DNA of 22,187 bases from a virus (IMGVR_UViG_3300005264_000636:1-22187), one strand, 5' to 3'; positions 5,461 to 19,677 are shown, counted from the first letter of the stretch. Program-made: numbers and translations. Notes: generated by a model not told the origin, from the letters alone.

Positions 5461-6621
5461 CTATCCTCTCCGACCCCGGCCTCTACGAGTCTTTTTCTCT
5501 TCTTTCTCTTCTTTTTTCTCTTCTTTTTTCTCTTCTTTAAATTTGATCCCAGCTCTAGCACAAGATTTCCACTCATCACAATCTTCACACTGATCTAACT
5601 TATCAGTGTCCTTACCAAATACACCTCCACCAGGACATTTATTATCTAACGATTCCGGTTCCGATTTTGACCTTCTACCTCCACGACCACGCTTAGGTTC
5701 GGATTCAGGTTCCGGTTCCGGTTCCGGTTCCGATTTTGACCTTCTACCTCCACGACCACGCTTAGGTTCGGATTCAGGTTCCGGTTCCGATTTTGACCTT
5801 CTACCTCCACGACCACGCTTAGGTTCGGATTCAGGTTCCGGTTCCGATTTTGACTCTCCACCCTCCTCTTCTTTCAATGCACCCCAATATGCTTCATACA
5901 ATTCATCATAGGTCGGAATCCTTAGCAAATCATCCAAACAAATTGCTTCGTCCATAGTTTCTTCATCAATCTCATAATCCCGATCAACAAAAGTATGACC
6001 AATAAACGAAGTATTAGTCTGTCCTGCCCCTTCTCTAGTAAATTCTATTGTTTTACCATCCATATCCGGACTTGCAAAAGCTACGGGTTCACCTGTAACT
6101 CCACCTCTACGTCGTTTCGGAGCAGCCAACTTAGTAAAAAATCTCTCACTAAACCATCTAGACACTTCCCAAATCTGAACACCTTTCTCTTCTTCTTCTG
6201 TCGTATCATAAACAATAACATTATAAACGCATCTATTTTTAGGATACAGCTCTTTAATCAAATCATCATCTGCACCCTCTTGTTTCAACACTCTTCTATG
6301 CTCACAAATTGGACAAGGTTTATTATAATTCTCAGCAAGACAAAGATAAGATCCTTCTGCGGCTCCAACCCTCTGATGAACCTTAACCTCCAAAACATAT
6401 CCAAGTTCACCTTCTTTAACATGTGGATCAAATTCACCAACATCGTAAGGAATAATGTCCATACTGTGATCTCCTTCCTTACACTTCCAAAAATTCAAAT
6501 CACCATAGTCATGGTCATCCCTAAAAATAGTAATATACCCACCACCAGACTTCCTATTGGTGCTCTCCTGAGTTCTTTTCTTCAACGCTTCTGCCATTGC
6601 TTTTCGATCTCTTTTCGCCAT
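5461..6621 (-). CDS. Single-stranded DNA-binding protein, gp32-like, with repeat-bearing tail
   Basis: The protein has 386 residues. The N-terminal 250 residues resemble phage gp32-type ssDNA-binding proteins and include a zinc-binding cluster around CLAENYNKPCPICEH (C94, C103, C106, H108). Residues about 255-320 hold three and a half copies of an SKSEPEPESEPKRGRGGRR-type repeat. A second Cys cluster, CPGGGVFGKD...CEDCDEWKSC, follows. The protein ends in a highly charged EEKKEEKKTRRGRGRRG tail rather than the purely acidic tail of T4 gp32. It would coat ssDNA during replication and recombination and cooperate with the RecA and UvsY-like neighbours. The start follows GGAGGG at 6632-6627. The ssDNA-binding role is inferred from the domain pattern and locus. 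Confidence 0.75.
   Translation of the reverse strand: MAKRDRKAMAEALKKRTQESTNRKSGGGYITIFRDDHDYGDLNFWKCKEGDHSMDIIPYDVGEFDPHVKEGELGYVLEVKVHQRVGAAEGSYLCLAENYNKPCPICEHRRVLKQEGADDDLIKELYPKNRCVYNVIVYDTTEEEEKGVQIWEVSRWFSERFFTKLAAPKRRRGGVTGEPVAFASPDMDGKTIEFTREGAGQTNTSFIGHTFVDRDYEIDEETMDEAICLDDLLRIPTYDELYEAYWGALKEEEGGESKSEPEPESEPKRGRGGRRSKSEPEPESEPKRGRGGRRSKSEPEPEPEPESEPKRGRGGRRSKSEPESLDNKCPGGGVFGKDTDKLDQCEDCDEWKSCARAGIKFKEEKKEEKKEEKEEKKTRRGRGRRG
5661..5852 (-). repeat. Tandem 57-bp repeat (one unit 69 bp) inside the ssDNA-binding-protein gene
   Basis: A unit beginning CCGATTTTGACC on the plus strand recurs at 5661, 5730, 5787 and 5844, giving periods of 69, 57 and 57 bp. The repeats are close to identical at DNA level. 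They keep the frame and encode alternating acidic SEPEPESEP and basic KRGRGGRRSK blocks. The longer period comes from extra TTCCGG hexamers that add proline-glutamate pairs. This points to recent slippage or unequal recombination. Confidence 0.95.
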
Positions 6622-7281: not shown

Positions 7282-8733
7282 TTATCCTGTTACAGTCAAA
7301 TAACAAGCCAGAGTCAATCCAGCTTTACCAGTATACATAAAACTATCCAAAAAATTTGTAATAACCAAAGCGGCTCTATCGTTTTCTGATTTAAGAAGAA
7401 CAGTATTCATCCATCCCAATACAGCATATCTTACTTTTTCTGGTTCATCATCAATACCAGATAAAATTTTACCAATTGTCTTCCATGACTTTCCTTCAAG
7501 TAAACCTCTACAAAGATCAATGACGACTTCCTTCTTCACGGAAAAATCAACTACAGTAGAAATCATCTCCTCTTCCGAACTCAAATCAATAACACTATCT
7601 AAAAGAACTAAAGCATTTCTTGGAGAACCTTCAGATACTTTAACAATCTCACTTACAACTTTATCCGAAATTCCTTCTATATTCTCTTCTTCCAAAACAA
7701 ACTTAATAAGAGAACTTAGTTTTCTTTTTGTCAAAGAAGAAACTTGAAATTTGGTACATCTAGTTCTGATTGTATTCAACAACCTCTCAGGTTCAGTTGT
7801 GCAAAGAATAAAATATACATGTTTTGGAGTATCTTCCAAGATTTTTAATACGGCATGCTGAGCATCAGACGTTAGTTTGTGACAATTGTGAACGGGAAGA
7901 TTATTAACAAAGTAAGACGGATGATTTTCTACCTCCAAATCATAAAATTCTACAAATCCCTGATTTCTTTCTTTATCTCCAATAATACTTTGGAAAGATC
8001 GTTCATTACCTCCTCGTTTGTAAACCTCAATACTTTCTACCCTAACTCGTTCAACTTTTTCATTTTCTTTTGATCTAACAATATAACTTTTTTCAATCCG
8101 TGATTGGTTCCATCCACTTTGATTTGACTCCTTTAGTAAATCGCTATCAAAGCCAAAAATCAAATCATTTGTTTGTAAATCTATAGATTTTTTCCAACCA
8201 TCATTCGTAAAAAACAAATGTTCTTTTGTTGAATGAACAACAGACCCATTAGAAAATCGTAATTTGACAACTCTATCCAAAACTACTTTATTAACAAACG
8301 TGTTAGAAACTTTGTCTACTCCTGACAATGAATAAACTGAATCTCCTTTTTGTATATTCTCAATTTTTTTACTACCAGAAGGAGTATTCACAAAAGATCC
8401 CTTTGCAAAACATTCGTCAAGCAGATAAATTTTACATGATCCTTTAACTGGAGAATACTTTGAATTAACCACCATCTCCCTGATAGCTTCAATACCTCTT
8501 GTATTCGCCATGTTCAATTCAGAAAAATCTCTGTCCGAACACTTTAACTCACTCTTTATAATTCTTGCTAAAGTTGTTTTTCCACAACCAGATGGTCCGG
8601 AAAATAGAAATGAATGAGGTCTACCCTCATCTCTTTCTAAAATTGACTTTAATGATGTAACAACACCTTCATTACCAACTACCTCGTCAAACGTTCGTGG
8701 TCTATACTCCAAATGCAATGGTTGTTCACTCAT
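7282..8733 (-). CDS. Clamp loader ATPase subunit (DnaX/RFC/gp44-like) with mini-intein
   Basis: A 483-codon gene in which a 176-residue intein (108-283) interrupts a 307-residue AAA+ clamp loader. The N-extein has the RFC/DnaX opening LEYRPRTFDEVVGN and Walker A GPSGCGKTT (46-54). Walker B is IYLLDE (102-107), and the intein lies exactly after it, so splicing restores LLDE-CHKLT. The C-extein begins CHKLTSDAQHAVLKILEDTP and contains the sensor-1 FILCTTEPERL and an SRC-like TRC. The spliced product would load the beta-clamp encoded at 12371-13384 for the adjacent polymerase. The start, after AAGGAGG, overlaps the polymerase stop by 8 bases. No separate small clamp-loader subunit is visible in the window. 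Confidence 0.92.
   Translation of the reverse strand: MSEQPLHLEYRPRTFDEVVGNEGVVTSLKSILERDEGRPHSFLFSGPSGCGKTTLARIIKSELKCSDRDFSELNMANTRGIEAIREMVVNSKYSPVKGSCKIYLLDECFAKGSFVNTPSGSKKIENIQKGDSVYSLSGVDKVSNTFVNKVVLDRVVKLRFSNGSVVHSTKEHLFFTNDGWKKSIDLQTNDLIFGFDSDLLKESNQSGWNQSRIEKSYIVRSKENEKVERVRVESIEVYKRGGNERSFQSIIGDKERNQGFVEFYDLEVENHPSYFVNNLPVHNCHKLTSDAQHAVLKILEDTPKHVYFILCTTEPERLLNTIRTRCTKFQVSSLTKRKLSSLIKFVLEEENIEGISDKVVSEIVKVSEGSPRNALVLLDSVIDLSSEEEMISTVVDFSVKKEVVIDLCRGLLEGKSWKTIGKILSGIDDEPEKVRYAVLGWMNTVLLKSENDRAALVITNFLDSFMYTGKAGLTLACYLTVTG
7885..8412 (-). mobile_element. Mini-intein at the Walker B site of the clamp loader
   Basis: The element has 176 residues. It begins with Cys (CFAKGSFVNTPSGS, block A), has a block B TxxH (HSTKEHLFF), a block F-like EFYDLEVENHPSYFVNN, and ends VHN followed by Cys of the C-extein. 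These are the residues of a class 1 intein with Cys1, penultimate His, terminal Asn and Cys+1. No LAGLIDADG or HNH endonuclease motif is visible; the middle (about residues 88-150) is a short charged linker. It looks splicing-competent but no longer able to home on its own. Confidence 0.9.
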
Positions 8734-11700
8734 TCGCTACCTCCTTTTTCCTTCTCCATACTCCATTCACCTTTATTGCATCATCTTTCATATACCAACT
8801 CCCATCAACTGGTGTAACTTCAAAATCTACATCCAACGGAACAATTATCCACGAATTTGCCTTTCTAACATCTTCACACATTACCTTTTTCACTACTTTA
8901 AAAACATGGTCTTGTTCAGATGGATCAAGATCAAATATAATACTATCGTGAATCTGACCAATAATTTTGGTTTTCCAATTTTCTTCTTTACTAATCTCAT
9001 TTACTCTCGTTAACGACCATAACAACAAATGAAAAGCCGTTCCTTGTATTGGAGTATTGATAATCTTGTTATGACTGAGATACCCTCCTCTCCTATGTCC
9101 AAACAACAAATTGACATAACCAGTCTTGTAATAATTTTTAATAGTAGCCTCTTGCCATTTTTTAAATACTTTAAATCTCTTCCAAAACTCATCTTCAATA
9201 GATTTAACATGTTTCTCAAATTGTGCGTAAGTCATTCCAATATGGTCTTTCACACTAACTCCATCAATAGAAAAACCAAAACAATTTTCCCAAATATTAG
9301 ATGCACAGGCCTTGTACCAGGAACCATAAAACTCAGGAAATACAAATTGATTTTTAGTATAAAATCTGAGATTAGTTGACCCTCCATCAACAGATTTCAT
9401 AACCTGATCCGTTGACATCTTAAAAATTTTCTTTGCCTGATCCCTATGCATACAAGAATCAGGATTATTGATGTACTTAACCAAAACTGGGTCCTTAGTA
9501 AAGCACGCAGCGATCCTAACTTCAATAGAACCATAATCTACTTCACATAACATATTGCCTGGACTCGGAATAATACCTGACCTTGTGACTTTCTTAGCCA
9601 ATTCATTTCTAACAGGAATGTTTTGAAAATTTGGCATACTGGACGAATTATGAACACAAATCTCATTAGCAATAAAATTATGACTACGTTCCGTTTCTAT
9701 ATCGTACACATCTACTTTTCTATTAAGTCGCACAACATTTGTTATTATATGATTTCCAGGAACAAATGATCCACATCCGTGAACTAAATGACCAGTAAAC
9801 CTAATAGTATCACCAACTCTCTTTGAAGATAAAACTCTTATCTTTGGCAATTTTCTACTAAATTCATCTTCGGTTCTAAAATCTCCCGCCAGATCTTCTG
9901 CTGGTACATACCTACCATCCGTCAACCGTACCAAATGTTCAGGAGTTAAATCCAAATAACCATGTCCTCCACCACCTTTAGAAGAATAATGAATTCTGAC
10001 AACTTCTTTATGTCCTGTTTTACCTGACCATACTACCTTCTCCACCGATGGTCGTAACTGATCATCAAAACAATAAACAAGATCACCAGATTTTACTGAT
10101 TCGATAGGTTTTCCTTGTGGATATTGTAACCTATCAGTCGCAGTTAAAACTAACGTACCTTTTGCAACACAGGACCTATATGTACGTGCAGTATGAAGAT
10201 CAAAAAATGGATGCATTTTTCCATCTTCTATCTCCCTAACAAACTGAGCAAGATATGTTCCCTTAATCTTATCTAACACTCTCATCTCAGTCAACTTTCG
10301 TGTAAAAGGAATATCAATTGCTGCCAACGCTTCTTTATCAACAGAAGGTTTTCCAGTCGTTGTTAACTTAATCGGTTCTAGTTCCAAAATACTAAACAAC
10401 AACTCTTTCATATGTAACGAAGACCTAGTATTTAACTCTTTCCCTGTTACCTTCTTAAATTTAATAGCTTCATCACTTTCCATCAATTCACTATACATTA
10501 TTTTAACTTTGTGCTCTAAATCACTAACCTGATCATGATAATACTCTTCGTTCATCATAATTCCATGATCCTGTGCATCTGCAAAAGCTAACAGACCTTT
10601 AACACAAAATTCATTTGCTCGACCCAAATCAGAATTTTTCTCAAAATGTTGTTTTTGATCCTTATATAATTTATATGTCAAAAGTGCATCTAATCCATTG
10701 TATAAAAGCAATTTGGAAAGTGGTACTTGATCTAATCGATTTATAAAATCATCACCTTTTGGTGCTATGAACTTATCAACATCTTTACTATAATCTTCGA
10801 TCCCATAATTTATATAGGATTGAAATTTTAACCCTGTAAAACCAGCTCTATCATCCACAATATGAGCCGCATTCATTGTGCACCAATGCCAATTAGTTGG
10901 TTTTACTTTGTAAATTTGTCTTGTCCACATCTCCTCAAACTTAAGATTATGAGCAATTTTCTTTATTTCATCACAAAGTAAAATATCTTCCCATAATTCA
11001 TCTAGTTCATCTAGTTCATCATCTGACCAATGTGGGTAATCAACGGGAATTGCGTAACAATTTCCAACATCGTCACAAACCCCTAAAGACCAAATTTTAT
11101 GACCTTTTCTATAAGGTTTCAAACTAGTTGTTTCGTAATCAAATGCCACTTCCGTAGACTCATTCAACGTTGATAACAAACAATTTTTCGCCTCCTCAAA
11201 ATCAACTACAATACTTACCTGACTTTCCAAATCCTCAAATACAGGACGGTCTTTATTCATCCAAGAAACAGCATTTTTAATATCACGTTTAAATAACGAT
11301 TTTAACCCTTCATCTCTCTTCTTTAAAATATAGGATGGATGAAATAACGAAACAACCCAAGCATCTGTTTGTTTGTCCGGAACACACAAACCACGTAACT
11401 TCGCAATACTCACCTTTTTAAATTTATTTATATAAAACGAATCTACTGCGGTCCCTCCTAATAACCAAATCATTCTTGGCTTCAATTTTTCAATAGTTTG
11501 ATACAAACGATCGTGACATAATTTTAATTCCCTTTTAGTCGGAACTCTATTCTTAGGAGGTCGACAACAAACCGCATTTGTCTTCCAAAAATCTATATCT
11601 AATGACAATTTATGTCGATCTAAAACTTCTCTTAAAAACTGACCGGATTTTCCAATAAACTGAGTCGGTACATCGTACCCTCTTCTTTTCCAATCTTCGT

Positions 11701-11875
11701 CTTCGGTATGACCAGGAGCCTCACCAACAATCAAAATCCCTTTTTCACCTTTACCTGTATATTCCATCCTAGGAGACATCGCTGATTTATAAAGTTTACA
11801 AACTTCACAGGGGTCTGCCAATGCCTTTGTACCCTGCCTTTTTTCAACCATCTTGTTTGTAAAAAATCCCTTCAT
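8726..11875 (-). CDS. polA: Family A DNA polymerase with N-terminal uracil-DNA glycosylase domain and mini-intein
   Basis: The gene has 1049 codons, 874 after removing an intein at 569-743. Residues 1-200 form a family-4-type uracil-DNA glycosylase domain: CEVC (C23, C26), GEAPG (51-55), CCRPPKNRVPT (C103/C104), C120 and HPSY (179-182). Residues about 240-400 are a 3'-5' exonuclease with D246 and E248, AHNLKFE (N310) and YNGLD (Y392, D396). The PolA part has spliced TARTYRS-SSSMPNFQNIP, motif A EVDYGSIEVR, a motif-B-like RFYTKNQFVFPEFYG and motif C QIHDS (H976, D977; usual HDE is HDS). UDG-PolA fusions are known in SPO1-like phages. The glycosylase part may proof-read for uracil or recognise unusual bases. 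The start overlaps the small upstream gene by ATGA. Confidence 0.95.
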   Translation of the reverse strand: MKGFFTNKMVEKRQGTKALADPCEVCKLYKSAMSPRMEYTGKGEKGILIVGEAPGHTEDEDWKRRGYDVPTQFIGKSGQFLREVLDRHKLSLDIDFWKTNAVCCRPPKNRVPTKRELKLCHDRLYQTIEKLKPRMIWLLGGTAVDSFYINKFKKVSIAKLRGLCVPDKQTDAWVVSLFHPSYILKKRDEGLKSLFKRDIKNAVSWMNKDRPVFEDLESQVSIVVDFEEAKNCLLSTLNESTEVAFDYETTSLKPYRKGHKIWSLGVCDDVGNCYAIPVDYPHWSDDELDELDELWEDILLCDEIKKIAHNLKFEEMWTRQIYKVKPTNWHWCTMNAAHIVDDRAGFTGLKFQSYINYGIEDYSKDVDKFIAPKGDDFINRLDQVPLSKLLLYNGLDALLTYKLYKDQKQHFEKNSDLGRANEFCVKGLLAFADAQDHGIMMNEEYYHDQVSDLEHKVKIMYSELMESDEAIKFKKVTGKELNTRSSLHMKELLFSILELEPIKLTTTGKPSVDKEALAAIDIPFTRKLTEMRVLDKIKGTYLAQFVREIEDGKMHPFFDLHTARTYRSCVAKGTLVLTATDRLQYPQGKPIESVKSGDLVYCFDDQLRPSVEKVVWSGKTGHKEVVRIHYSSKGGGGHGYLDLTPEHLVRLTDGRYVPAEDLAGDFRTEDEFSRKLPKIRVLSSKRVGDTIRFTGHLVHGCGSFVPGNHIITNVVRLNRKVDVYDIETERSHNFIANEICVHNSSSMPNFQNIPVRNELAKKVTRSGIIPSPGNMLCEVDYGSIEVRIAACFTKDPVLVKYINNPDSCMHRDQAKKIFKMSTDQVMKSVDGGSTNLRFYTKNQFVFPEFYGSWYKACASNIWENCFGFSIDGVSVKDHIGMTYAQFEKHVKSIEDEFWKRFKVFKKWQEATIKNYYKTGYVNLLFGHRRGGYLSHNKIINTPIQGTAFHLLLWSLTRVNEISKEENWKTKIIGQIHDSIIFDLDPSEQDHVFKVVKKVMCEDVRKANSWIIVPLDVDFEVTPVDGSWYMKDDAIKVNGVWRRKKEVANE
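9647..10171 (-). mobile_element. Mini-intein in the DNA polymerase gene
   Basis: The element has 175 residues. It begins CVAKGTLVLTATD with Cys1, has block B DLTPEHLVRLTDG (TxxH), block F DVYDIETERSHNFIANE, and ends CVHN followed by Ser+1. Removal rebuilds TARTYRS-SSSMPNFQNIP, which aligns without gaps to the PolA motif TGRLSSSNPNLQNIP, so the boundaries are well supported. No homing-endonuclease motif is present. It differs in sequence and +1 nucleophile from the clamp-loader intein, so the two were probably acquired independently. Confidence 0.92.
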
Positions 11876-13549: not shown

Positions 13550-14686
13550 TTACAATCTCCTCATCCCAAACCGTGGTGCTGTTTTTCGTTTCCACGACCA
13601 TGGCCACTTAGGAAGAAAATTTTCTAAATCCTTAAAATAAATAATATTAAGTTCATCTCTTAATTTATAATCATTCGAAAGACCAACTTCGACTATTGTT
13701 TCAACATAACGGTCTTTTGTTTCGTTTCCATCATCATACGAAATCAAATTTCCAAATTGATCAAAAACAGACCCATCATCGTCAATTCTACCAAACCAAC
13801 GTTCGTTATCTTCTAAAGGATAATTCTTACTTTCGGTTCTAAACGTAGATAACCCTACCTTAAACCCTTTCAACATCAAATATTTATCTATTTGTGTCTT
13901 TTCCATAGAAGTTAAAGCAGAATAATGTTTACTTCCCTGAAGACTATCCTTTTTACTAACATTCAAATTACCTTCATATGATGTTACAAAAGGGTTACTT
14001 CCATTTTCCGGTAAGTCTCCACGTTCACTAAACTTAACTTCTTTATTTATTCCACCAGGAGATCTAGTCGACATTCCAATCTTCCAAGTATTCTTTCCGT
14101 AAACATACTCACCATTTACTTCACGTGGAACGTAAATAGATCCAAACCTACTCGTCATTACCCAAGAAGTCGAATCAACACTATACCATGGCCAACGAAT
14201 CATCAAGTCTAACGCCGTCATAGCAAAACCATGAACTTTTACAATTGGATAACCTTTGGAATCGGTAAGAAACTGATCCCAACAAAGATCACCCCATTCC
14301 AAATATTCTGCCTTGTTTACCTCTTGACCAAGACCACCAAGGCCAATGTATTCACACCCATCATCTACATACTTTGTAATCCACTTCGGATCGGTTCCAA
14401 AGTGAATCACCGGAAGAGGGTTCAATCCATGTTTGTTCTTCAAATATTCATATATATCCCACGATCTGTCCGAATTAAAAATAACATCGACATTAACATA
14501 CACTTCGATATAATCTAAATTCTCTTTAACAAATTGTGCATAGTTATCAACATACTTCATGAAGTCCGGCGTATCGTAATATGCATAACCATCCGCATGA
14601 CCAAGCTGAATGACTTCTTTAGTATATAAACTATGAGCACCAGAATCTAAGAACAGATCAACACTTAATGGTGACTTCTGCGCCAT
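13550..14686 (-). CDS. dpdA: DpdA-like DNA guanine transglycosylase (TGT superfamily)
   Basis: This protein of about 378 residues resembles phage TGT/DpdA-like enzymes. DLFLDSGAHSLY (about residues 10-21) matches the DSGG base-binding Asp region of tRNA-guanine transglycosylase. YVNVDVIF is a conserved barrel strand, and IHFGTDPKW...YIGLGGLGQ follows. KVHGFAMTALDLM and YSVDSTSW match the later barrel strands, where the nucleophilic Asp is expected (D in SVDST is my candidate). Such enzymes swap guanine in DNA for 7-deazaguanine bases. The protein starts almost at the LDSGA strand; the usual MKIYLAG...SYYD opening appears only in separate small genes. ATG 14686 is set by GGAGG 9 bases upstream. 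It overlaps the T-fold gene by 29 bases. DNA rather than tRNA as substrate is inferred from context. Confidence 0.75.
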   Translation of the reverse strand: MAQKSPLSVDLFLDSGAHSLYTKEVIQLGHADGYAYYDTPDFMKYVDNYAQFVKENLDYIEVYVNVDVIFNSDRSWDIYEYLKNKHGLNPLPVIHFGTDPKWITKYVDDGCEYIGLGGLGQEVNKAEYLEWGDLCWDQFLTDSKGYPIVKVHGFAMTALDLMIRWPWYSVDSTSWVMTSRFGSIYVPREVNGEYVYGKNTWKIGMSTRSPGGINKEVKFSERGDLPENGSNPFVTSYEGNLNVSKKDSLQGSKHYSALTSMEKTQIDKYLMLKGFKVGLSTFRTESKNYPLEDNERWFGRIDDDGSVFDQFGNLISYDDGNETKDRYVETIVEVGLSNDYKLRDELNIIYFKDLENFLPKWPWSWKRKTAPRFGMRRL

Positions 14687-15008
14687 TCTCATTATCCTCC
14701 AAAACTGATACATAATTACAATTAAACTTCTCCAATACTCGACGTGCAATCTCTTCACACGACATCCGTCCAAGATCCGGTGTAGCTAAACTAGTATCAC
14801 ATAAACTCATTAAAAATACACTTATCTGCCTTTTAAACATAATAATTTCTACATCTCTATCCTCGTGAGTAACTTCCTTCTTTGCAACAACATGAAACAT
14901 ATGGCGATGTGAATCACGAAGGAACTTTACATCTTCTAAAGGACATTCCGGCCAACAATGTGACGCTTCAAACAACGTTTTAATTATAATATTAGTACAA
15001 TGTGTCAT
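14658..15008 (-). CDS. QueD-like T-fold protein lacking the catalytic Cys
   Basis: This 116-residue protein aligns by eye with QueD along its length. FEASH (H17) matches the FSAAH zinc ligand, SHRHMF (H34, H36) matches HGHN, SCEEIARRVLEKF matches the TAENIA helix, and VSVLEDNENGAEV (E104) matches the VxVxET Glu. QueD has a catalytic Cys four residues before HGH; here that position is Leu (FLRDSHRH). The zinc site therefore seems kept and the synthase chemistry probably lost or changed. Cys residues at 18, 22 and 84 could substitute. The ribosome site is AAAGGAG. It overlaps both the glycosyltransferase and dpdA genes. Published phage pathways include an enzyme that removes the carboxyl of 7-carboxy-7-deazaguanine (DpdL); whether this is related needs a search. 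Confidence 0.6.
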   Translation of the reverse strand: MTHCTNIIIKTLFEASHCWPECPLEDVKFLRDSHRHMFHVVAKKEVTHEDRDVEIIMFKRQISVFLMSLCDTSLATPDLGRMSCEEIARRVLEKFNCNYVSVLEDNENGAEVTIKC

Positions 15009-16113
15009 AGGCTTCTCCTTTCATTGTTTTATACATTCTAAACCATGCTAAATCAAACTTTTTGTAAACCCAATCCCAATTTTCTTCGGAACCATCGATA
15101 TACTTAATAATCATCTGAGCTGCGTCCTCTACATCATTCTTAATATACATTAAATCACCACGAAAGTCAAGAACTTCTGGAAAGCTCAAAAAATAAGGAT
15201 ACAAGGGTCTACAACCACATGTCGTCGCTTCTAATAAAGTCCAACTAACAAAATCCTGATCAGCTGTATTTATCTGCATAGATGACGACAAAAGATTTTC
15301 ATAATATTGTTCCTTTGATTGATTTTCTTTTAAAGTCAAATTTGGAAATTTATACGCTTCTAAAAGACTAAGTGCACTTTCTTCATTACTCCGAAGCTTA
15401 GTAGCGGATGTAGTAATAACAAATTGAATAGTTGGATCTAACTGATAAACTCTTTCTGCGATAGCTAAAAAGACATCTGGCCTCTTCTCCTTATCCCACC
15501 TACTGGAAAAAATTACCTGCCTTTTCCTCTTTGGAAACTCACTTGGAAAATGAGTTTTAACTTCATCTGAATTATAAGGTAATCCACAAATAAACAAATT
15601 ATTCTTGTTCCCTACTCCATTGTACAAACATAAATCATACAAACAAGTACTGGTAACAAAAATACCTGACAAAAAAGAACCAATACTTCTTTCCAAATGT
15701 CTCATCCAACCTCTCATAGGATAGGTAAAATCAAACATATCGACACTTTGAGCATGTAACATAGCATACATTTTGGGCCAAACATTACTAAGATGAAATG
15801 TATAAGGAAGTGCTTCTATTCCCGGATGCCAAAAGTCATCAAAATATAAAACATCATCCTGACTAACTTTTCCTTGTTGAAACAAAGACAAAAAATTCAT
15901 AATTTGTGAACATGCCCAATATCCACGACCATTCGAATCTAAAACACTTCCAGTTTTAATTTGATTATCATCATTCAAAGCAGTACCTTCTACACGAATA
16001 TAATCAATACCATTTTGAACCCACCTACTTTCAAGCCACCCTTTTTTTGAAGAAGACAACTGAACTGTATACCTCTCCTTATATGGTTCTAATGGAAAGT
16101 AAAAAATCTTCAT
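14992..16113 (-). CDS. GT-B fold glycosyltransferase (GT4-like)
   Basis: This 373-residue protein has a C-terminal half with typical GT4 features: VIFSSRWDKEKRPDVFLAIAERV as the first strand-helix of the nucleotide-sugar domain, then TIQFVITTSA. SWTLLEATTCGCRPLYPYF...PEVL is close to the EX7E donor-binding motif. The N-terminal half has FYFPLEPYKERYT and a VLYFDDFWHPG strand. There is no signal peptide or membrane helix, so it acts in the cytoplasm. Its start overlaps the QueE-like gene (ATGA) and its end overlaps the T-fold gene. This places it firmly inside the deazaguanine cassette and makes modification of a DNA base plausible; the sugar and acceptor cannot be read from sequence. Confidence 0.75.
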   Translation of the reverse strand: MKIFYFPLEPYKERYTVQLSSSKKGWLESRWVQNGIDYIRVEGTALNDDNQIKTGSVLDSNGRGYWACSQIMNFLSLFQQGKVSQDDVLYFDDFWHPGIEALPYTFHLSNVWPKMYAMLHAQSVDMFDFTYPMRGWMRHLERSIGSFLSGIFVTSTCLYDLCLYNGVGNKNNLFICGLPYNSDEVKTHFPSEFPKRKRQVIFSSRWDKEKRPDVFLAIAERVYQLDPTIQFVITTSATKLRSNEESALSLLEAYKFPNLTLKENQSKEQYYENLLSSSMQINTADQDFVSWTLLEATTCGCRPLYPYFLSFPEVLDFRGDLMYIKNDVEDAAQMIIKYIDGSEENWDWVYKKFDLAWFRMYKTMKGEAYDTLY

Positions 16114-16541
16114 ACTTTGACCTCCTCATCTGTATTATACAATTCACAAGATAACTTTGTATAATAAACTTCGCCTTCCTCTATCCAAAATAATTCTTCT
16201 GAGTTTTCAACTTTAATTGTATCAACATCATCACCAAATACAACCGTGTAAGTAATATGAATTCGTTCTTTGAAATCCAACGGGATCTTAGCTACTTCTC
16301 GACGATCTGAAATCTCAGCAACAAATTCAATATCTGATTCACACTTTTCTATTAAAGAACGAAGACATTTCATATCTGGAAGTCTACGATAATTACCTGC
16401 TCCTAAATAAATTCTTTTGATTCCATACAAAGACAACAATTGTATAATTGTTGTAACGTCAAAAAAATCCGTACCTATAAACAAAGTTTTTTTGCCTACA
16501 TCTGGACCCTCGGCTTCCAACCCAATAAAGAGTTCACTCAT
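16110..16541 (-). CDS. QueE-like protein without iron-sulfur cysteines
   Basis: The protein has 143 residues. The start is ATG 16541, set by AAGGAG just upstream; a longer open frame to 16652 runs back into folE and has no ribosome site at its start. The opening MSELFIGLEAEGPDVGKKTLFIG closely follows the QueE opening (EIFxSIQGEGPxVGxPTxFIR). IKRIYLGAGNYRRLPDM then matches the ITGGEPLLQ strand position. The radical-SAM CxnCxxC motif that should lie between them is absent; the segment is FFDVTTIIQLL. It may be a degenerate radical-SAM fold that binds a deazapurine or partners the real QueE. I do not know a named family. The alignment is by eye and short. Confidence 0.5.
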   Translation of the reverse strand: MSELFIGLEAEGPDVGKKTLFIGTDFFDVTTIIQLLSLYGIKRIYLGAGNYRRLPDMKCLRSLIEKCESDIEFVAEISDRREVAKIPLDFKERIHITYTVVFGDDVDTIKVENSEELFWIEEGEVYYTKLSCELYNTDEEVKV

Positions 16542-16560
16542 GTTCACTCCTTGTTCACTC

Positions 16561-17580
16561 CTAATGTGTTCTAGATAATTGTAACAAATCGAAAAATTCT
16601 TTTCGTGCAGCTGGATCATCCATAAATATTCCGGACATTGCTGAAGTTTCATACGAAGTTTGCTTTTTAATTCCTCTCATCTTCATACAAAAATGAGTAC
16701 CACTAACAACAACAGCACTTCCTATTGGTTTTATTTTTTCAAAAGCTTTAACTATATCCTGAGTTAATGTTTCTTGTAAAACTGGACGTTGACTTAAAAC
16801 ATCGATTATTCTAGCAAGTTTTGAAGCACCAAGCACTCTCCCTTCCTTTGAAGGAATATAAGCAATTGTGGTTTGATATTCAACAGGCAAAAAATGATGA
16901 GGACACATTGAAAAAGAAATTACATCCGGACAAAAAATCATAGACTCATAACCTTCACTTGGGAAAGATGTAGCAAGAATAGAATCTATTTGTTCTTCTG
17001 TATTTTTAAGACCAGCAAATATTTCTCTGTAAGCTCTAGCCACTCGTTTTGGAGTATCTCGAAAATTTTCATCTAAAAGATCTAAACCAAACTCCTGTTT
17101 CAACCCCTTAAAAATATAATGAACTCCTTTTTCAATTGCATCTATCCCGGTAAATCTCGATGAAACTTCATCTAATTCTTTATGAAGTTTAGCATAACAA
17201 GACTTACATAAAACTTGCAAACTCTCCAAATCGCGATTTCCTAATTCACTAGATATATTCACCAAATCTTTATGATGAACAGAAAAATCTAAAGAATTAC
17301 CAGACTCAAACCCACACCTAGCACATTCTAATCCATAAAATTCAAGTGCTCTTGCACGATAATTAGTTGTACTGTGAATCAAATCATCAGAACGCTCGTA
17401 CTTACTACATTTTTCACTAACATGATTCACTCCTTGATCAACTAATCCTGACACATCAATAGGTGAATCTGGAAACATATTTCTATACTCCTCCATAGTC
17501 AATTGATGTTTGGTAAACAAATGAGTATTTGTTATTCTACTATACTCATTTTTACACAACTTACAACGTATTTTATTCAT
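16561..17580 (-). CDS. folE: HNH endonuclease fused to GTP cyclohydrolase I (FolE)
   Basis: This is a 339-residue fusion. Residues 1-45 form a MucR/Ros-like zinc finger (CKLC at 6-9, H20, H25, then LTMEEYRNMFPDSPI), a module often seen in phage homing nucleases. Residues about 75-135 are an HNH domain: CARC (86-89), VHHKD (H102, H103) and CKSCYAKLH (125-133). Residues about 145-339 are GTP cyclohydrolase I: DENFRDTPKRVARAYREIFAGL, CPHHFLPVEY (zinc C226, H229) and GTHFCMKMRG (C298). FolE makes dihydroneopterin triphosphate from GTP, the first step toward 7-deazaguanine. No ATG occurs between the domains. The start follows AGGAGG. A remnant of another FolE N-terminus lies directly upstream. Confidence 0.9.
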   Translation of the reverse strand: MNKIRCKLCKNEYSRITNTHLFTKHQLTMEEYRNMFPDSPIDVSGLVDQGVNHVSEKCSKYERSDDLIHSTTNYRARALEFYGLECARCGFESGNSLDFSVHHKDLVNISSELGNRDLESLQVLCKSCYAKLHKELDEVSSRFTGIDAIEKGVHYIFKGLKQEFGLDLLDENFRDTPKRVARAYREIFAGLKNTEEQIDSILATSFPSEGYESMIFCPDVISFSMCPHHFLPVEYQTTIAYIPSKEGRVLGASKLARIIDVLSQRPVLQETLTQDIVKAFEKIKPIGSAVVVSGTHFCMKMRGIKKQTSYETSAMSGIFMDDPAARKEFFDLLQLSRTH

Positions 17581-17590
17581 TTAACTCCTC

Positions 17591-17668
17591 CTATGCCTTG
17601 AGAACCCTATTGGAAGTCTTTAACAAACCCTCCCAATCAGGGTCCTCACCAATATACTTAAGTAGCAT
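17591..17668 (-). pseudogene. Remnant of a resident folE N-terminus, cut by the HNH-FolE gene
   Basis: The frame from ATG 17668 reads MLLKYIGEDPDWEGLLK then TSNRVLKA and a TAG at 17593-17591. This matches the B. subtilis-type FolE opening (IGEDPxREGLLxTPxRVxKA). If the TAG is read through, the frame continues EELN, again as in FolE (KAWEEL), before the HNH-FolE ATG takes over in another frame. The GGAGGAG ribosome site of the fusion is therefore built from these old folE codons. The fused FolE domain starts with an E. coli-type opening (GLDLLDENFRDTPKRVARAY), so the two are of different lineages. Confidence 0.75.
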
Positions 17669-17671
17669 CTC

Positions 17672-18280
17672 TCACGCTGCCTTTTTACCAGATACTTTCC
17701 CATCTGCATCGATCGAAATTTCAACACCTTTTTTCTTAGTCAAATGATAAGTATGTGATTTGACCCGACTGACTTTAATAGACAATTTCTCAGCAATCTC
17801 CGCCAAAGTTGACTGTCCTTCGATAATAAGTGTATCAATGTCGCCGGCCTGTTTACCAACAACATGACCCCACGCAGTTTTCTCAACAGAACTTTTCTTT
17901 GCCGTAGCTTTCTTCTTTTTCGGTTTTTCTTCTACCACTTTACACGCCTCCTTACATTTTTTGTAATCATCTGGGTATTGTTCTTCACAGCCCTGACAAT
18001 CTTTATTATCAACATCCCATCCTTTCATGAATACAGGACACTCTTCTTTAACCTCTTCCTTCGTAGGTTCTTTCAACTGTTCTACCAACTTATTATACAT
18101 ATTTGCTACACCTCTTGGAATTTCAACCTCCTTTTCTTCTGGAATTGTCTCAACCGTCTTTAAAAAATCATTGATAAAATCTGCGTTAGTCAATCCAACC
18201 AACTTAACCTTTTTTGTCGCAAGTTTCAACGTATTCAACTCTTTTGCCGCAGCTTTAACTTCTTTCATATCAACTTCCAT
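17672..18280 (-). CDS. Cys-cluster protein with C-terminal helix-turn-helix-like domain
   Basis: The protein has 202 residues. The N-terminal 75 residues are helical and charged. Residues 81-113 hold CPVFMKGWDVDNKDCQGCEE and two more Cys (C81, C95, C98, C109, C113), likely a zinc site. A lysine-rich linker (KPKKKKATAKKSS) follows. Residues 145-185 (STLAEIAEKLSIKVSRVKSHTYHL) look like a winged helix-turn-helix. A related Cys cluster occurs in the ssDNA-binding protein tail. This is the first gene after promoter 18335-18364, with a perfect AGGAGG site, so a DNA-binding or regulatory role is plausible. I do not recognise the family. Confidence 0.6.
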   Translation of the reverse strand: MEVDMKEVKAAAKELNTLKLATKKVKLVGLTNADFINDFLKTVETIPEEKEVEIPRGVANMYNKLVEQLKEPTKEEVKEECPVFMKGWDVDNKDCQGCEEQYPDDYKKCKEACKVVEEKPKKKKATAKKSSVEKTAWGHVVGKQAGDIDTLIIEGQSTLAEIAEKLSIKVSRVKSHTYHLTKKKGVEISIDADGKVSGKKAA

Positions 18281-18334
18281 TTTCTACCTCCTATTTATTT
18301 AAAAACTTTCTTTCTCAACTACTCTCTCTCTTTT

Positions 18335-18364
18335 AGTATAAACAATTCAGACTAGATCTGTCAC
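18335..18364 (-). promoter_or_regulatory. Sigma-70-like promoter for the modification operon (copy 2 of shared element)
   Basis: On the minus strand GTGACA (18364-18359), an 18-base spacer and TATACT (18340-18335) repeat the element at 7248-7277. There is one mismatch between -10 and -35, plus the TATACT/TATAAT change. The spacer carries the same CAGA-N5-TCTG inverted repeat. It would drive the 202-aa gene, folE, glycosyltransferase and dpdA, and possibly the replisome genes. Conservation of the whole spacer suggests a regulator site as well as a promoter. Confidence 0.8.
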
Positions 18365-18600
18365 AAAAAGTTAAAAAATAAAAGATTCTGAATTGCTTTT
18401 CTCAAAATGTTATAAACGCCATTTACATCTGCATTGATTATTCGTCCAGAATTTGTTTTATACAATCCTCTTGTTCAACTTCTCCAATTTCAACCATTTT
18501 ACTTGAATTGAAGAAGATTTGTCGTACAATGTAATTGGCTTTGTTGTACAAATTTTTACAAGCAAATGATAAATCATTGAAAACAAAAGTTTTTCAAAAG
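18361..18600 (-). pseudogene. Decayed TnpB (IS200/IS605-type) C-terminal fragment
   Basis: The frame 18471-18361 reads RGLYKTNSGRIINADVNG then VYNILRKAI and stops. This is the conserved C-terminal RGLY-x-T/S-x2-G-x2-INADVNGAxNILRK motif of TnpB proteins in IS200/IS605/IS1341 elements. Upstream, 18600-18472 continues only in a shifted frame (FEKLL..., LEKLNKR) with a break just before RGLY, and no start is present. No tnpA or transposon ends are seen. The promoter -35 begins inside the terminal TGA. This accounts for most of the 347-base gap 18281-18627. Confidence 0.75.
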
Positions 18601-18627
18601 ATTTACTTGATTCTGTAAATCCTATTT

Positions 18628-19305
18628 TTAATCTAGTTCTTTTATATCTAAAACCTTATGCAACTGAAAATTAACAACAGCGTCCATAACTCTATCGTCC
18701 ATCAACCAAGAAATCAAATCATTTGGATTCAACTTTCCATGACAAGGAGAAAAAGCAAAATTGACTTTTGAATCCATATCCTGTTGAAGCCAATTCTTAA
18801 AATTGACAGCCTCATCGAAATCTTTTCGATCTTCAATAACAAACTTAACAAAATCTCCTGCTGTAAGTTCCAAAAAATTAGCAGCATCCATTTGATCTGT
18901 AACACCAGAACTAGCCAACTTGTAATCAACCACCCACGATCCAACATTATATCCAATACATGGAAGGGTTCCGTTAGTTTCAACCGAAATGGTATAATCC
19001 TGTTTAGCAAAATACAATGCTTTTGTCAATTCATAAACTTCTTCTACCTGAAGCATTGGTTCACCACCTGTTATAGTTATCTTGAATATTCCTATTTCCT
19101 CAATTCTATTCATAACATCTTTAACACTCATTTCTGTACCAGACTTCGGAGATAGAGCATACAGTGTATCACAATACAAACACGGTTTTGTATTTGAAAG
19201 ACCACCAAGATTACAACCGGCCATCCGAATAAAAGTAGTCAATCTGCCTTGATGATAACGAGAAACTTCTCCATCAATACTTGGAAATATACTATAAACC
19301 TGCAT
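18628..19305 (-). CDS. queE: 7-carboxy-7-deazaguanine synthase (QueE), radical SAM
   Basis: This 225-residue protein has the QueE opening YSIFPSIDGEVS, then FIRMAGCNLGG...CLYCDT with C31, C42 and C45 for the 4Fe-4S cluster, KITITGGEPML (79-85), SVETNGTLP and WVVDYKLASSG. The cluster spacing is CX10CX2C, unlike the CX3CX2C of most radical SAM enzymes and the CX14CX2C known from some QueE. QueE rearranges 6-carboxytetrahydropterin to 7-carboxy-7-deazaguanine. The start codon abuts the queD stop (TAA-ATG), with AAGGAGG inside queD, so the two steps are co-translated. Confidence 0.9.
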   Translation of the reverse strand: MQVYSIFPSIDGEVSRYHQGRLTTFIRMAGCNLGGLSNTKPCLYCDTLYALSPKSGTEMSVKDVMNRIEEIGIFKITITGGEPMLQVEEVYELTKALYFAKQDYTISVETNGTLPCIGYNVGSWVVDYKLASSGVTDQMDAANFLELTAGDFVKFVIEDRKDFDEAVNFKNWLQQDMDSKVNFAFSPCHGKLNPNDLISWLMDDRVMDAVVNFQLHKVLDIKELD

Positions 19306-19677
19306 TTAATCCTCCTTTTTCCATTCAGAATAAGAATTTGATGTTTCACTAACCCTGACTCTGACTAAACTATTACCAAAAACATTCCGCAACTCTTGTA
19401 CAATCCACATGACTATATTTTCTGCAACTGGGTTTGAAATAATATCATTCAAATATTGATGGTCTAATTTATCAATAATTGTTTCCTTAACCAACTTTTT
19501 GAAATCCCCAAAATCAATAATCATATCTTTATAATCTCTAAAATTCTCTGTAGTTTCAGTTGCAACTAACTCCACTTCTAAATGAGAATTGTGTCCATGA
19601 AGATTTTTACATTTTCCTTTGTGACCTGGCAACTGATGACCATAACAAAATTCAAATTTCTTTACAATGGATAACAT
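19306..19677 (-). CDS. queD: 6-carboxytetrahydropterin synthase (QueD)
   Basis: This 123-residue protein has all QueD residues: zinc ligands H14 (FCYGHQL), H27 and H29 (LHGHN), catalytic C23 (GKCKNLHGH), IDFGDFK, LDHQYLN with D72 and H73, the NPVAENI helix and VSETSNSYSEW with E111. The length is typical for the family. QueD converts dihydroneopterin triphosphate from FolE to 6-carboxytetrahydropterin, the substrate of QueE, encoded directly downstream. The ribosome site is AAGGAGG, right after the helicase stop. It is the intact counterpart of the Cys-less T-fold protein at 14658-15008. Confidence 0.95.
   Translation of the reverse strand: MLSIVKKFEFCYGHQLPGHKGKCKNLHGHNSHLEVELVATETTENFRDYKDMIIDFGDFKKLVKETIIDKLDHQYLNDIISNPVAENIVMWIVQELRNVFGNSLVRVRVSETSNSYSEWKKED

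Follow-up and report, generated by a model that had tools for sequence, protein, structure and literature searches.

A candidate pathway to glycosylated 7-deazaguanine in DNA, encoded by a phage operon with no QueC in view

Known deazaguanine systems and the layout of the operon

FolE, QueD, QueE, QueC and DpdA constitute the 7-deazaguanine DNA modification system of Queuovirinae phages and their relatives (Hutinet et al. 2019, PMC6884629). The viral sequence analysed here, a linear fragment of 22,187 bases that is the window in its entirety, shares with that system FolE, QueD, QueE, a phrog_887 DpdA and the order FolE ... DpdA - sliding clamp, but differs in that it has no QueC and that FolE and DpdA are separated by three genes, which encode an accessory protein (p180), a GT4-like glycosyltransferase (GT) and a QueD-like T-fold protein. 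Phage deazaguanine pathways that lack QueC, and end at 7-carboxy-7-deazaguanine (CDG) or 7-deazaguanine, are already known; phage dDG and dCDG, together with a predicted CDG decarboxylase, DpdL, were reportedly described by Cui et al. in 2023. Cellulophaga phage phiST encodes a member of the same T-fold family along with FolE, QueD and QueE, and likewise no QueC, whereas cassettes of the phiST type differ from that of the window in having no GT, another transglycosylase-like protein (DpdAc) and, often, a P-loop kinase.

The α- and β-glucosyltransferases of phage T4 are GT-B enzymes that attach sugar to 5-hydroxymethylcytosine in DNA, a different base that is made before replication, whereas in the present system a transglycosylase would insert the base and the glycosyltransferase is GT4-like. 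In animal tRNA a glycosyltransferase places a sugar on a 7-deazaguanine nucleoside, giving manQ and galQ, but there the nucleic acid is tRNA rather than DNA and the sugar acceptor is the cyclopentenediol of queuosine. For PA5oct, a jumbo phage, a deazaguanine synthesis and incorporation system has been noted (Iyer et al. 2021, PMC7824862), and the passages on it that were located link it to no glycosyltransferase. The papers searched link no glycosyltransferase to DpdA cassettes and report no chemistry for any GT-bearing phage. The FolE-QueD-QueE-DpdA core is well known, and the GT branch looks undescribed.

Eight genes form a block on the minus strand that encodes, in transcription order, QueD, QueE, a 202-amino-acid protein, FolE, p180, the GT, the T-fold protein and DpdA, as assigned with Pfam, PHROGs and NCBIfam profiles. 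QueD (6-carboxytetrahydropterin synthase, 19306-19677) matches PF01242 (PTPS, 1.2e-29) and, at the cut-off, TIGR03367; residue inspection showed that the catalytic Cys and Asp-His (C23 and D72-H73) and the HGH motif are intact. The radical SAM enzyme QueE (CDG synthase, 18628-19305) matches PF04055 (2.5e-9), phrog_2076 (1e-24) and the NCBIfam QueE family TIGR03963 (2e-42), and contains Cys31, Cys42 and Cys45. FolE (GTP cyclohydrolase I, 16561-17580) matches PF01227 (5.6e-48) and scores over the cut-off of NF006826, with its domain at residues ~142-335 and an HNH-like N-terminal extension (HNH match in PHROGs). The DpdA-type DNA guanine transglycosylase (13550-14692) matches phrog_887 (1e-40) and, by tblastn, sequences from DpdA phages. 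Its reading frame opens at a TTG at 14773, but the alignment makes a true start near 14692 more likely; both catalytic-type Asp motifs (DSG and VDS) are present, and D16 and D173 (alignment numbering) are invariant. The profile matches and catalytic residues thus confirm the four pathway genes that had been named in an earlier, sequence-only reading of this DNA. The 202-amino-acid protein (17672-18280), whose role is unknown, gave no family match and has weak relatives in several GT loci. The genes for p180 and the GT overlap by 4 bases and those for the GT and the T-fold protein by 17, an arrangement as in a translationally coupled operon. On the 3' side the cassette is followed by genes for a sliding clamp, a family A polymerase and a clamp loader, and known DpdA phages, among them Me-ZS1 and a Stenotrophomonas phage, share the FolE ... 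DpdA - clamp order.

The glycosyltransferase and its gene neighbourhood

The GT (14992-16113), the candidate sugar-adding enzyme, matches PF00534 (4.5e-6), and its AlphaFold2 model (pLDDT 95.3, pTM 0.92) displays a GT-B fold along the whole chain; the GT-B glycosyltransferase read from the sequence is therefore upheld, on the same minus strand as the pathway genes. The closest structures are BshA, sucrose-phosphate synthase and MshA (Z ~27; 317-337 residues aligned, rmsd 2.9-3.7). The donor-site residues R205 and K210 are invariant, as is E295, while D287 is nearly so, and the motif of an acidic residue, seven positions and Glu reads D-x7-E rather than the usual E-x7-E. As the acceptors of GT4 enzymes are highly varied, linkage of genes does not prove what the GT acts on.

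Profile scans of IMG/VR yielded at least 576 GT and at least 583 T-fold candidate loci, of which the best 80 of each were analysed. These comprised 153 non-redundant loci, 107 with both genes, 42 with the T-fold gene alone and four with the GT alone. Of the non-redundant GT loci among these best matches, 53 are 16 kb or longer, and all 53 contain the T-fold gene and a DpdA-type gene, a co-occurrence with DpdA of the kind that the sequence-only reading had named as a check; QueE, FolE and QueD are found in 49, 48 and 37 of them, respectively; the pathway genes share the strand of the GT in all loci, again among the best matches, that have both GT and T-fold genes. In a separate collection, which was outside profile building, four GT loci were found, all with the T-fold gene and three with the DpdA-type protein DpdAb. 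The loci come from related phages, and so the counts are not independent. Cultured carriers of the gene set are the PA5oct group, including Paride, together with Synechococcus phage BUCT-ZZ01, Xanthomonas phage X1 and Phosso. GT, T-fold and QueE genes are found in BUCT-ZZ01, X1, PA5oct and Phosso; PA5oct also encodes DpdAb. In Phosso, which has FolE as well, no transglycosylase was found with the DpdA-type profiles or PF01702.

Three transglycosylase-like types were distinguished: DpdA, the type in the window, DpdAb and DpdAc. DpdAb was assigned by motifs, the annotation in X1, weak similarity and weak PDB matches to TGT, and DpdAc by motifs only; both families resemble known transglycosylases weakly, and their profiles gave no significant score against the window-type DpdA. 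Among the best matches DpdAc occurs in 32 of the 42 loci that have the T-fold gene alone and was not found in GT loci, and it is present in three further GT-less phages outside profile building. A single-sequence DpdA scan of viral_contigs returned no match; the GT and T-fold searches succeeded.

Genes that could supply a sugar donor also track with the GT. UDP-glucose 4-epimerase (GalE; TIGR01179 over cut-off) is encoded in 36 of the 107 GT loci and none of the 42 T-fold-only loci, and a heptose-1-phosphate adenylyltransferase-like protein in 26 and one, respectively, among the best matches. Every GT locus in which either protein was seen is of the DpdAb type; neither is encoded in the 43 GT loci among the best matches that have the window-type DpdA, and the sugar donor in those phages would thus come from the host. 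This genomic evidence, namely the conserved neighbourhood and the restriction of GalE to GT loci, lends strong support to a tie between the GT and the deazaguanine pathway.

The cassette could instead yield plain dCDG or 7-deazaguanine, as QueC-less phages that have no GT do, with the GT a passenger directed at a different DNA base, or at a protein, small molecule or surface glycan. The 42 T-fold loci without a GT show that the pathway works without it, and indicate that the T-fold protein forms the core, to which the GT is an optional addition; phage glycosyltransferases often serve surface polysaccharides (PMC7824862), and GT4 acceptors are diverse. Against this, the GT is always accompanied by the T-fold and DpdA-type genes in the long loci described above, and the linkage recurs in the separate collection. 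Of the pathway enzymes, the T-fold protein is also the one whose pairwise distances follow those of the GT most closely (correlation 0.76, versus 0.59-0.68 for the others), although kinship of the phages alone could explain that ranking. We regard a passenger GT as unlikely, and addition of the sugar to the modified base as a reasonable inference from the gene linkage.

Distant GT matches in PhiXhv phages have another gene context and were left out of the counts. In Xanthomonas phage PhiXhv-15 (L192, 3648-6882) the neighbours of the distant GT are annotated as a GlmS-like aminotransferase and a GlcNAc-malate deacetylase, and this may be a further cassette based on a sugar.

The T-fold protein, QueC and accessory genes

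The T-fold protein (14658-15008, phrog_17812) is related to QueD in both sequence and structure. Profile comparison with QueD gave a probability of 86% (E 5e-6), and the T-fold part of a model of a T-fold/p180 fusion matches E. coli QueD over 103 residues (Z 13, 2.1 Å); mean pLDDT of the model is 76, mostly at least 90 across the T-fold, with the p180 part poorly predicted. The zinc-binding His triad (H17, H34 and H36) is invariant and aligns with H14, H27 and H29 of QueD, and both conserved Glu residues are kept. QueD residues C23, D72 and H73 have no counterpart. The T-fold protein had earlier been read as Cys-less, which holds for the catalytic Cys of QueD, lost together with the Asp-His pair, but is too strong for the protein as a whole as the Cys of its own SCE motif is invariant; an H-x-x-R motif is nearly so. 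Retention of the zinc and guanine-like ligand site, with loss of QueD catalysis, fits an enzyme that acts on CDG. We infer from these residues that CDG is the substrate and that the carboxylate is the most likely site of action, with decarboxylation to 7-deazaguanine the leading guess. The T-fold protein may be the CDG decarboxylase already named DpdL.

No QueC (PF06508) was detected within the 22,187-base record, which bears out its reported absence from the window. The record is a fragment, however, and the missing gene says little by itself; the step taken in the sequence-only reading, from no QueC in the window to no preQ0, is invalid alone, as the host could supply QueC or preQ0. Relatives were therefore searched instead. 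PF06508 was compared with 49 records containing the T-fold and/or GT genes, and none encodes a normal QueC, no match exceeding 33 bits. Among the 49 are 11 isolate genomes that encode the T-fold protein (BUCT-ZZ01, X1, PA5oct, phiST, MA9V-3, Bakedbeans, Roos, Phosso, RHph_I1_18, D479 and Ahp1), all without a normal QueC. As a control, eight phages without a T-fold gene were drawn from the DpdA search list, two of them showing just a weak match to the T-fold profile (E ~4e-4); all eight encode QueC, at 162-196 bits. T-fold protein and QueC are thus mutually exclusive in the sample, in which many contigs are incomplete and many related, and the exclusion suggests that what follows CDG is carried out by the T-fold protein instead of QueC. 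It seems, from this distribution of genes, that the T-fold protein replaces QueC, and the QueC-free reading of the cassette stands to that extent.

Marginal PF06508 matches of 16-33 bits occurred in seven of the 49 records, those of X1, five large contigs and Vibrio phage D479. The match in X1, a 277-amino-acid protein that reads like NAD synthetase, was not counted as a normal QueC, and nor were the contig matches that were inspected, which read as diverged members of the PP-loop proteins, have a cluster of Cys at the C-terminus and are encoded outside the cassette. Such QueC-like PP-loop proteins, of 217-233 amino acids, are encoded in the large cassette-bearing phage contigs L180, L181, L183 and L185.

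Completion of the pathway by the host, in which bacterial QueC turns phage CDG into preQ0 for insertion by DpdA and the T-fold protein and GT have side roles, has some points in its favour: many bacteria encode QueC, a match being present in 12 of 14 control genomes, and host completion of incomplete phage sets has been proposed (PMC7824862). It does not sit well with the exclusion described above (QueC in 8/8 control phages versus 0/11 T-fold isolates), or with the retention by related DpdA phages of their own QueC, and we consider it improbable.

The protein p180 (16110-16541; its reading frame opens at 16652, and 16541 is the probable start) is encoded in 29 of the 107 GT loci and none of the 42 T-fold-only loci among the best matches. 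In three contigs it is fused to the T-fold protein, which ties the two together. The description of p180, the 180-amino-acid protein, as a Cys-less QueE-like protein is not supported: the likeness amounts to one short N-terminal motif, and the hhalign probability of similarity to QueE fell from 23% with five sequences to 2.7% with 22, which also lends no support to a degenerate QueE. The p180 alignment contains no 4Fe-4S Cys motif, and in the structure searches run the p180 portion of the fusion model, which is poorly predicted, matched nothing clearly.

A P-loop kinase is encoded in 13 of the 42 T-fold-only loci, twice fused to the T-fold protein, and was not found in GT loci, among the best matches. 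The two T-fold/P-loop kinase-like fusions, L061 7929-8882 and L083 7189-8157, are in GT-less cassettes, and in phiST and MA9V-3 a separate kinase gene follows the T-fold gene. The T-fold-linked kinase may be another tailoring enzyme or a salvage enzyme. In L008 (8596-9600), L009 (7820-8728) and L010 (8582-9514) a phosphoribosyltransferase-like domain is fused to FolE, with similar proteins in 49 fetched loci, duplicates included; it is possible that this domain recycles to GTP the guanine that DpdA sets free. The T-fold protein of the Chryseobacterium phage MA9V-3 (L016, 8455-9339) has an N-terminal extension that appears HNH-like by eye, and this extension and that of FolE in the window are perhaps homing elements in the cassette.

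The proposed pathway and other features of the record

In the pathway proposed here FolE, QueD and QueE would, by homology, convert GTP to CDG, on which the QueD-derived T-fold protein would act in the place of QueC, for example by decarboxylation to 7-deazaguanine. DpdA, again by homology, would exchange guanine in the DNA for the resulting base. The strict gene linkage suggests that the GT would add a sugar to the deazaguanine derivative, either as the free base or in DNA, and in some relatives a UDP-glucose 4-epimerase adjoins the GT. Glycosylated 7-deazaguanine in phage DNA would hinder restriction and other DNA-targeting defences. On balance we lean towards this scheme, in which a QueC-free phage operon directs modification of CDG by the T-fold protein, insertion of the base by DpdA and glycosylation by the GT4-like enzyme to give DNA with glycosylated 7-deazaguanine. 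The broader proposition, of a widespread pathway in which a zinc T-fold protein replaces QueC and prepares CDG, and a GT4-like GT, in some phages with GalE or a heptose-type nucleotidyltransferase, adds the sugar, we judge to have an even chance of being correct.

The weakest point of the model is the acceptor. Decarboxylation of CDG by the T-fold protein would leave C7 without an oxygen to form an O-glycoside, and the sugar would then have to be attached as a C-glycoside or at another position; should CDG keep its carboxylate, that group could accept the sugar. That the GT glycosylates a free pterin or deazaguanine metabolite, leaving the DNA free of sugar, is very improbable: a tetrahydrobiopterin glucosyltransferase is among the GT4 structure matches (9v0l, Z 24.7), but it ranks below several unrelated GT4 enzymes (Z ~27) and is hence unspecific, and the T-fold protein and a transglycosylase accompany the GT in every long locus among the best matches.

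If the proposed pathway is correct, sugar-bearing deazaguanines would join the known DNA bases as a guanine counterpart of the glucosylated cytosine of T4, and the T-fold protein indicates what may stand in for QueC. At least 107 non-redundant loci, as well as cultured phages, contain the gene set. Resistance to restriction enzymes, and perhaps to those of CRISPR systems, is expected of DNA modified in this way, and the GT has potential as a DNA-labelling tool.

Several features elsewhere in the record, all on the minus strand, deserve mention. The family A DNA polymerase (8726-11875) comprises an N-terminal domain of the uracil-DNA-glycosylase superfamily (PF03167, 2e-21) in addition to exonuclease and polymerase domains, and contains an apparent mini-intein at 9647-10171 (residues ~569-743; Intein_splicing 7e-7, below the cut-off). 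A second apparent mini-intein is located in the clamp loader at 7885-8412 (residues ~108-283; Pfam Intein_splicing 2e-9). At 5646-5861 a KSEPEPESEPKRGRGGRRS-like unit is repeated in frame within a 386-amino-acid protein that is encoded directly before a RecA-like gene.
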